Source: a virus
Reading direction: 5' to 3' (one strand)
DNA length: 64,000 nt
Virus record (IMG/VR): IMGVR_UViG_3300035162_004655
Coordinates: 1-64,000 of that record
A model generated the notes under the pieces. The model had not been told where the DNA came from. It did no database searches and worked only from the letters and a program-made list of their open reading frames with translations. Of this stretch, positions 24,771-30,139 are shown piece after piece. The translations under genes and the position numbers were made by a program. How positions within the stretch are numbered: position 1 is the stretch's first letter; the number at the start of each line of letters is the position of its first letter.

Positions 24771-25808
24771 TTAAATGTAATTCCACTTGTGATCAAATGC
24801 CCATTTCCAGTATTCACCATTCATCCTATTCTTAATGTTGCGTGTTATACCTCCCACACCACTATAATCACCTTCACTCTTAATATAAAATGATGCTTCA
24901 CTTATGCTATTGAAGGTAATCGTTTCACCGGTATGAATGTTAATACCTTTTACCGGTTTCCTTCTTTTGGCTGCACTTATTGCAGATGCTTTCTTATAAT
25001 GTTCTGTACTATGCCTATTAGTGGCAAAGGTGATCTTATCATAAGAAATGATCTTACCTTTCTTATGGAACAGATACCAACCCTTACATTGTAGTTTATT
25101 CTTATGGGGACTTTTTAATGATTGAAATACACCATTATTATTCTTTTTATCTCCTGTTATGAACTCTGCACAGTCTGCCTGACTCTTCCATTCCTTATAT
25201 TCACCATTAGTATTATATCCATAGACACCAGTTCTAATTCTAATCTGCTTATCTTTCCATTCTTTTAATTTCTCACCTTTCCAAGTCCATCTATAATTAT
25301 GTGATTGAAATACATTACCTTTACAACATTGTCTAATACATTGTCTTTCATTTCCAGAAGGTTTATATCCTAATGTTTCTAATGCTGCGACACCAACAGT
25401 ATCATAGTCACAAATATAAACATCATCTAATGTATAACAACTGACGGCACGACTGTTAGGATGCTTAGACCAATACTTTGATGGTTTAGATATACCTTCT
25501 CCACCATAGGTACAGTTATATCCCGCACCATCACAGGTATTATATTCTGCAATGTAATGTTTTTCTCTTTCATTTACATTATCATCAGTACATTCTTCTA
25601 ATACTCTAAACTTAAAGTTGTTACTACCATACTTATTGATTGCTTTAATAATAGGCATTGAATGAATGGAATTGTATGCCGATGTACTCTCTTTTAATCT
25701 GGCATTATTGATGTGTTCTTTCCATCTATCATATGGATTGAGTTTAGTTGTTTTACCAATATATTGCTTACCATTCAGATTGTTTGTAATGCTGTAGATG
25801 TATGCCAT
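24771..25808 (-). CDS. GIY-YIG homing endonuclease with repeated DNA-binding motifs
   Basis: 345 aa, the only convincing minus-strand gene. The N-terminus YIYSITN...KQYIGKT with Arg28 is a GIY-YIG nuclease domain to about residue 110. The rest has repeated NUMOD1-like units of the form V-x-x-Y-x-x-x-G followed by a helix and a W/Y turn (near 125-185, 200-260 and 280-345). TATAAT on the minus strand (25815-25820) lies just upstream. Start 25808 is chosen because the GIY motif begins at residue 3. It is inserted next to the origin-like region. Confidence 0.88.
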   Translation of the reverse strand: MAYIYSITNNLNGKQYIGKTTKLNPYDRWKEHINNARLKESTSAYNSIHSMPIIKAINKYGSNNFKFRVLEECTDDNVNEREKHYIAEYNTCDGAGYNCTYGGEGISKPSKYWSKHPNSRAVSCYTLDDVYICDYDTVGVAALETLGYKPSGNERQCIRQCCKGNVFQSHNYRWTWKGEKLKEWKDKQIRIRTGVYGYNTNGEYKEWKSQADCAEFITGDKKNNNGVFQSLKSPHKNKLQCKGWYLFHKKGKIISYDKITFATNRHSTEHYKKASAISAAKRRKPVKGINIHTGETITFNSISEASFYIKSEGDYSGVGGITRNIKNRMNGEYWKWAFDHKWNYI

Positions 25809-25880
25809 TATTGAATTATAATATATTCGTGTGTTCTGTATATATGCTGATTTAAAACTATTATAGAGATTTAACAAGTC

Positions 25881-25932
25881 TGTGGATAAGTATTGTATTT
25901 CTGTGGATAAACCCTATTATTTGTGTGGAAAA
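25881..25932 (+). other. three phased DnaA-box-like sites
   Basis: TGTGGATAA at 25881-25889 and 25902-25910 are exact reverse complements of the classical DnaA box TTATCCACA. TGTGGAAAA at 25924-25932 is the reverse complement of TTTTCCACA, the form I recall for cyanobacteria. All three face the same way with 21- and 22-bp steps (two helical turns) in AT-rich DNA. Candidate origin element. Confidence 0.6.
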
Positions 25933-25991: not shown

Positions 25992-26097
25992 TCTGAGACT
26001 TGTGACCTTTACCTGCGAGCATAGCACACCGAGAGTATTTTGTCAAGACCCCCCACATAAAAATCCTGAGACCCACACATTTTTTCTCGTCGAGACT

Positions 26098-26105
26098 TAT
26101 AAATA
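26098..26105 (+). promoter_or_regulatory. T4-type late promoter within the palindrome array
   Basis: TATAAATA, a perfect late core, lies between the first two palindromes. Confidence 0.6.
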
Positions 26106-26133
26106 ATCCTTATGGATCTCGTCGAGACAGCAC

Positions 26134-26162
26134 TTGACATCTAGACGAGATAACAGTATAAT
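26134..26162 (+). promoter_or_regulatory. consensus sigma-70 promoter overlapped by operators
   Basis: TTGACA (26134-26139), 17-bp spacer, TATAAT (26157-26162): a perfect match to the bacterial housekeeping consensus. The spacer contains the TCTAGACGAGA site, with full palindromes on each side, an arrangement typical of a tightly repressed or autoregulated promoter. Confidence 0.8.
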
Positions 26163-26194
26163 ATACAAGTAACATACAAATCTCGACGAGACCC

Positions 26195-26386
26195 ATGTAT
26201 TACTACGATCACAATCTCGACTATACATCATTAAGCAATGATCATAATGTATACGATCTCGACGAGATGTGTGAGCAATACATGCATAATACATCACGAG
26301 ATATGCAACTAGATGCATACGATGATGATGAGTACGCACGAGATACACATGATTACGTCGAGCTTGCATATAAGCACTACGCATGA
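26195..26386 (+). CDS. Tyr/Asp/His-rich small protein, 63 aa
   Basis: The first ATG after the consensus promoter, about 25 bases downstream of the likely start site. Composition is unusual: about half the residues are Asp, Tyr, His or Glu, with no clear fold. Palindrome copies lie inside the frame (YDLDEM). It may be a real early protein or only a frame through the repeat array. Confidence 0.45.
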   Translation: MYYYDHNLDYTSLSNDHNVYDLDEMCEQYMHNTSRDMQLDAYDDDEYARDTHDYVELAYKHYA

Positions 26387-26416
26387 TATAATACGTAAAC
26401 ATCACACGAGATACAC

Positions 26417-26569
26417 ATGTACGCACAGAAACGCATTGTGAGTGTTACATTAGACATTGAGTGTTATGAAGATCTAGATCTTAAGAATATCAATTGGGTT
26501 GATATCTTGGGACTAGAAGGTGATGAGAATATTGATATTACTATAAAAGAGACTGCAGATATCTACTAG
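26417..26569 (+). CDS. hypothetical protein, 50 aa
   Basis: Preceded by TATAAT at 26388-26393 and a half palindrome. Product is acidic (VTLDIECYEDLDLKNINWVD). A perfect 14-bp palindrome, AAGATCTAGATCTT, lies inside at 26469-26482. Function unknown. Confidence 0.6.
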   Translation: MYAQKRIVSVTLDIECYEDLDLKNINWVDILGLEGDENIDITIKETADIY

Positions 26570-29941: not shown

Positions 29942-30139
29942 ATGGCACAAGGATTCAAAGATATGCAAAAAAATCCGCAGGAAAATTTTACGACTGTAGA
30001 GATCGACCCAGTAAGTGGGGAACATATTATTACGATACCGGAATGGATATGTGATGAGAAGGGGTGGTACGAGGGAACAGAAGTAAATATCGAGGTAGAG
30101 AATGACTGTCTTATTATTAAGGATCTCGAAGAGTCTTGA
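29942..30139 (+). CDS. AbrB/MazE-like small DNA-binding protein
   Basis: 65 aa. The C-terminal 35 residues (ITIPEWICDEKGWYEGTEV then IEVENDCLIIKD) match the swapped-hairpin AbrB/SpoVT/MazE fold, in which a helix between two strand pairs binds DNA. A T-run and AT-rich leader (TATATAAA near 29931) precede it. It may regulate the adjacent promoter at 30159 or be the antidote half of a toxin-antitoxin pair, but no MazF-like gene is adjacent. Confidence 0.75.
   Translation: MAQGFKDMQKNPQENFTTVEIDPVSGEHIITIPEWICDEKGWYEGTEVNIEVENDCLIIKDLEES

Follow-up and report, generated by a model that had tools for sequence, protein, structure and literature searches.

The OR and OL operators of phage lambda are several near-identical dyads laid over sigma-70 promoters, where the bound dimer excludes RNA polymerase. 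In phage T4, MotA and AsiA serve the control of early and middle genes, which are transcribed by the host polymerase. The known AbrB, MazE and SpoVT proteins, of swapped-hairpin fold, are small dimeric DNA binders. T4-like cyanophages are very abundant ocean viruses; the cyanomyoviruses have no motA and asi homologues, and their early and middle control was described as unresolved in a 2010 review (PMC2984593). One cyanophage-encoded transcription factor, pMarR, reportedly targets rne, a gene of the host (PMC9692554). The question addressed here is that of early and middle timing without MotA and AsiA.

The window (the whole 64-kb stretch of DNA that was analysed) comes from a virus record of 67.6 kb that belongs to a T4-like cyanophage. 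It carries baseplate, head-closure and tail-fibre genes as well as cyanophage auxiliary genes, and its nearest named relative at the locus described below is S-SKS1. The features of this locus are the following (palindromes are given without strand):

25881, 25902 and 25924 (25881..25932), plus strand: three DnaA-box-like 9-mers, TGTGGATAA, TGTGGATAA and TGTGGAAAA
25937..25991, plus strand: TTATAAAGTTCTCATAAACCT, two copies, between the DnaA-box-like 9-mers and the array
26018..26046, minus strand: divergent sigma-70-like promoter TTGACA-N17-TATGCT, related phages often having a strong minus-strand promoter at this place
26085..26095: palindrome TCTCGTCGAGA, upstream site, from the exact-site scan
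26117..26127: palindrome TCTCGTCGAGA, 23 bp ahead of the spacer site
26134..26139, plus strand: -35 hexamer TTGACA, from the promoter scan
26140..26150: one-mismatch variant palindrome TCTAGACGAGA, within the -35/-10 spacer
26157..26162, plus strand: -10 hexamer TATAAT, from the promoter scan
26181..26191: palindrome TCTCGACGAGA, ending 3 bp before the ORF1 start codon
26195..26386, plus strand: ORF1, a 63-aa acidic protein family (MYDDYDLDY...LAYRHYA)
26215..26225: degenerate site TCTCGACTATA, within ORF1
26257..26267: palindrome TCTCGACGAGA, within ORF1, read in frame as L-D-E
26296, 26338 and 26406 (span 26296..26412), plus strand: half sites ACGAGAT
26417..26569, plus strand: ORF2 (phrog_12516), conserved in array-less phages too
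29942..30139 (homologous start 29963), plus strand: AbrB/MazE-fold protein of 58 aa, phrog_661, candidate binder of the array

The sequence TCTCGWCGAGA occurs exactly at four places (26085, 26117, 26181 and 26257), when shuffles of the window lead to expect none. The half sites ACGAGAT/ATCTCGT are concentrated in the same region, 6 of the 11 in the window falling inside 26080-26420, and the whole array of full, variant and half sites spans 26085-26412. The promoter, TTGACA-17 bp-TATAAT, matches the consensus at 12 of 12 positions and is the sole one to do so on the plus strand of the window. The sequence-only reading had described an array of palindromes around a perfect sigma-70 promoter, and this is confirmed for the four exact sites, the spacer variant, the half sites and the promoter. 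It had also stated that the same 11-mer being as frequent elsewhere would count against it; there is no further exact site in the 64-kb window or in the whole 67.6-kb record. Repeated dyad sites overlap the promoter elements, which is the layout of a repressor operator array. By direct reading, neither the NtcA box GTA-N8-TAC nor the Pho box CTTA-N7-CTTA (consensus as quoted in PMC3037559) lies within TCTCGWCGAGA.

A motif scan of related phages, proposed with that reading as a check, places the full sites of S-SKS1 and most sites of S-SRM01 at the array locus. S-SKS1 (208 kb) has two full sites, and both belong to an eroded array at the homologous place; in part of its clade the array has decayed to one site plus half sites. 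In S-SRM01 (240.8 kb) 13 of the 14 sites with at most one mismatch lie within 85.6-91.0 kb; the arrays of S-T4 and P-SSM2 consist of five and four sites, respectively. In the linear record of S-T4 (MH412654.1) the same array is present twice, at 2748-2933 and 174317-174502, i.e. near both ends, which suggests either that the genome has a long terminal repeat or that the assembly is redundant there. The array was not found in S-SM2, Bellamy, S-CAM7, S-SCSM1, SynMITS9220M01, DSL-LC03, Sf-CH8, Syn33 and S-PM2, which have scattered single sites or none. IMG/VR was scanned for two sites 8-38 bp apart and at least 120 stretches matched; among the matches listed, the high-GC contigs look like chance, and most of the others, from dozens of contigs, have the array beside the same small ORF, ORF1.

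The geometry is shared between S-SKS1 (eroded), S-SRM01, S-T4, P-SSM2 and dozens of IMG/VR contigs: a site upstream, one in the -35/-10 spacer, one just before the start codon and one inside the ORF. Of 77 distinct loci, 61 have a site at -11 to -13 relative to the ORF1 start codon, the other common positions being -50 to -55, -82 to -87 and the interior of ORF1. The -50 site occupies the 16-18 bp promoter spacer in most of 59 sequence clusters. The promoter of the Prochlorococcus phage P-SSM2 reads TTGACA-AT-CTCGACTAG-ATCTGG-TATAAT, and S-SRM01 likewise has a site in the spacer of its ORF1 promoter. When CTAG variants are included the site consensus is roughly AATCTMGWCKAGATT. Spacings between adjacent sites peak at 31-33 and 40-43; their periodicity score hardly changes between 9 and 10.75 bp and does not distinguish about 10.5 bp from neighbouring periods, so that helical phasing is at most suggestive. 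The array is locus-specific, real and conserved, and is not a dispersed motif. It occurs in many T4-like viruses of ocean and lake cyanobacteria; in this sense the earlier view that such a promoter is unusual for a lytic phage was wrong, the array being widespread among T4-like cyanophages. It is apparently undescribed in the literature searched: among the papers listed for the 11-mer all matches were unrelated, the titles and abstracts searched do not describe the array, and no papers were found with the locus tags that P-SSM2 has for the array gene, for the gene next to it and for the AbrB-like gene.

ORF1 has no PHROG or Pfam match and its structure model is poor (pLDDT 62); it represents a new, previously undescribed small-protein family. 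The palindrome inside it is read as LDE, and we compared how this tripeptide is spelled. At ORF1 loci picked mainly by the DNA motif, 92 of 122 occurrences have the spelling CTCGACGAG; we used the set picked by protein alone, which avoids the bias of the former, and there 56 of 60 are spelled in this way. Elsewhere, in long frames taken from the window, from S-SKS1 and from S-SRM01, the count is 0 of 67. The contrast is large, but the sequences are related and a Fisher value is no true probability. It indicates that the DNA word inside ORF1 is itself selected, beyond the peptide, which would make it an example of regulatory DNA fixing codon choice within a gene.

Sites are distributed asymmetrically around ORF1. 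From -8000 to -500 there are none, from -500 to 0 there are 4.3 per locus, and they are dense from -500 to +500. Minor arrays are found solely downstream of ORF1, out to about 8.5 kb, and many of them lie in leaders that precede other small genes. In L123 (about +1335 from ORF1) and L078 (about +1423) a palindrome lies in the spacer of a separate TTGACA/TATGCT promoter. This distribution looks like that of a small regulon. Read by eye, the L123/L078 promoter apparently precedes a tRNA gene. In L083, L043, L063 and L071 a phage protein LTGxxLLxKVNEMQ...RACGY, with another C-terminal part, stands directly before a minor array downstream of ORF1; its start presumably resembles cyAbrB. As a common binder of the array this cyAbrB-like protein is discarded, because it has no match in the complete genomes compared. 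A repeated leader around AAAAYCGTGTATTGTAG is also seen before several small ORFs of the window (at about 26655, 26915, 27670 and 28240), and it is common to the window and S-SKS1.

To identify candidate binders we compared the ORFs of S-SRM01, S-T4 and S-SKS1 with those of the array-less S-SM2, Bellamy, SynMITS9220M01, S-CAM7 and DSL-LC03. In a list read by eye, with apparent shadow frames of conserved genes set aside, only ORF1 and one protein of 56-59 aa are present in all array-bearing genomes and in no array-less genome of the comparison. Loci fetched by this small protein alone, with at least 5 kb upstream, have ORF1 in 14 of 14 cases. A set picked by ORF2, to which the named genomes also belong, was restricted to loci that extend at least 9 kb downstream; the gene of the small protein is present in 22 of 23 of those with ORF1 and in 0 of 5 of those without. 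The rows of these tables are not independent and shared ancestry may explain the association. The protein falls in phrog_661 (E 1.5e-15). The AF2 model of the window protein (29942-30139; pLDDT 82) has as top PDB matches MazE 1mvf (probability 1.00, TM 0.84 by target), AbrB 1yfb and SpoVT 2w1t, with Foldseek E-values above 0.1 for a single modelled chain; a swapped-hairpin AbrB fold is thus predicted. At the sequence level, the window protein scores below the Pfam and NCBIfam curated cut-offs, and relatives matched weakly at E<=0.1: 13 of 39 to PF04014 (best 9.7e-5) and 17 of 39 to TIGR01439 (best 0.0016). A distant homologue in Syn33 carries the RefSeq label AbrB/MazE/SpoVT. A sequence search of the PDB with the AbrB-like profile gave nothing significant. 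The correspondence has exceptions: Sf-CH8 carries both the AbrB/MazE-fold gene and a homologue of ORF1, yet is without the array; Syn33, S-PM2 and S-CAM7 have distant AbrB-like proteins and no arrays; and no homologue was detectable in L123 and L131, which extend more than 10 kb downstream, or in L352.

We lean towards the reading that the palindromes are the operator array of this phage AbrB/MazE-like protein, which would repress the early ORF1 promoter and nearby units. Early in infection the host sigma-70 RNA polymerase would use the consensus promoter to transcribe ORF1 and ORF2 behind it. The AbrB/MazE-like protein, presumably a dimer, would be made from its gene roughly 3-9 kb downstream and would then bind the palindromes upstream of the promoter, in its spacer, at the ORF1 start codon and within that gene. 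There it would exclude RNA polymerase and shut off the ORF1 unit, and it would act alike at the minor arrays further downstream. Given the placement of the sites, repression by exclusion of the polymerase is the plainest reading. The sequence-only reading had proposed a cooperative repressor or an initiator. Its repressor operator has good support from where the sites lie, from their conserved geometry and from selection at the codon level, while binding and its agent, repression, cooperativity and timing are what we infer from the DNA; its initiator or origin role finds no support in the palindromes, as array-less phages keep the promoter and ORF2 and the GC skew shows nothing.

The region upstream of the array has elements of its own. 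The DnaA-box-like 9-mers are spaced by 21-22 bp and lie 150-200 bp upstream of the array, and the S-SKS1 counterpart of the TTATAAAGTTCTCATAAACCT repeat is a 22-bp tandem array. A DnaA-box cluster is found in the window, in S-SKS1, in S-SM2 and in many contigs. Intergenic early-region clusters of two or three TGTGGAWAA (or complement) were seen in the window (25881-25932) and at L005:7840-7890, L141:3746-3775 and L416:9689-9722, and they occur with and without the palindrome array in several T4-like cyanophages. The minus-strand promoter toward the DnaA boxes is often conserved, 43% scoring at least 10 against 4% in shuffles. In the window (26018-26046) it reads toward a GIY-YIG homing-endonuclease-like gene (24771-25877, minus strand), which adjoins the array, is not annotated at the S-SKS1 locus and was probably inserted next to the control region. 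In S-SKS1 the path of this promoter has no annotated minus-strand gene, and the promoter could then make a non-coding or primer RNA.

These neighbours raise the alternative of a replication origin or segregation element, in which a phage initiator would recognise the palindromes as iterons or centromere sites, the DnaA-box-like 9-mers and AT-rich repeats lying beside them. The same-strand triplet is the only such cluster in S-SKS1 and the pair the only one in S-SM2; 31 of 80 ORF2 loci have at least two boxes in the 700 bp upstream; a low-GC stretch is near the array locus, and a single theta origin has been predicted for the relative Syn9 (PMC2984593). This recurrence, also in Syn33 and S-PM2, makes the box clusters a real feature. 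Boxes are nevertheless present in the array-less S-SM2, Syn33 and S-PM2 and absent beside the arrays of S-SRM01, S-T4 and P-SSM2, so that boxes and palindromes are separable. Moreover the palindromes are tied to a promoter and a start codon, and the GC skew has no turning point at the locus, a weak test because skew follows the coding strand. We consider an origin role of the palindromes improbable; an origin at the DnaA-box triplets upstream, in part of the phages, is possible.

If the palindromes are operators, the AbrB/MazE-like protein is still a putative binder, which leaves room for another factor, be it a host cyanobacterial regulator, ORF1 or another phage protein; we judge this rather unlikely. 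Across the loci examined ORF1 and the array go together, but ORF1 is acidic and poorly folded, and a 59-aa helical protein present in all three complete array-bearing genomes (S-SKS1, S-SRM01 and S-T4) is also found in the array-less DSL-LC03. A host factor is made less likely by the absence of any cyanobacterial genome among the 54 records with paired perfect sites, and WH7803 is recorded as host of phages with the array (S-SKS1, S-T4) and without it (S-SCSM1); a host factor using single sites is possible. Proteins bound over a promoter spacer and gene start normally block the polymerase, and both are covered by sites here. Together with the perfect consensus of the window promoter, which should need no activator, this makes it quite improbable that the bound protein stimulates an activator-dependent promoter, e.g. 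as a middle-mode switch, even if many relatives have a weaker -35 hexamer (TTGCAT/TTGCAA) and cyanomyoviruses are without motA and asi homologues (PMC2984593). An action of the repeats at the RNA level, whether by hairpin formation or as sites of processing, would suit the sites in leaders and inside coding sequence. It is very improbable, as an 11-nt palindrome with a one-base centre can pair at no more than 4 positions around a 3-base loop, sites lie upstream of and inside the promoter, outside its transcript, and the element has no Rfam match (the Rfam search of the window returned tRNAs only, with one sub-threshold L20 leader near the locus).

Returning to repression by the AbrB/MazE-like protein, a wider proposal can be put forward tentatively, and we doubt that it holds as a whole: that an AbrB/MazE-type repressor regulon, its array running through the promoter into ORF1, operates in many marine and freshwater T4-like cyanophages, where it would take the place of the missing MotA/AsiA-type switch from early to middle genes and, in part beside DnaA boxes, would couple early transcription to the start of replication.

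Compared with the described systems, the array is like the lambda operators in its several near-identical dyads over a sigma-70 promoter, but it belongs to T4-like phages that are lytic and in which no sign of lysogeny was seen, comprises up to eight sites and runs on into coding sequence; the candidate binder has an AbrB/MazE fold instead of a helix-turn-helix, and its gene lies kilobases away. To the AbrB/MazE/SpoVT proteins the candidate is related by predicted fold and weak profile matches; it differs in scoring below the curated family cut-offs, in that no toxin partner was noticed beside it, and in an operator that the literature searched does not describe. It resembles pMarR as a cyanophage-encoded putative regulator, whereas pMarR has a MarR fold and other binding sites (PMC9692554). 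With MotA/AsiA the likeness would be one of role, the control of early and middle genes that the host polymerase transcribes for the phage; the array differs in that its site is a dyad within the promoter spacer. Because early and middle control without motA and asi was left unresolved (PMC2984593), an AbrB/MazE-like candidate is of interest, and the array offers a precisely defined operator together with a named candidate for its binder, in the cultured phages P-SSM2, S-SKS1, S-T4 and S-SRM01.
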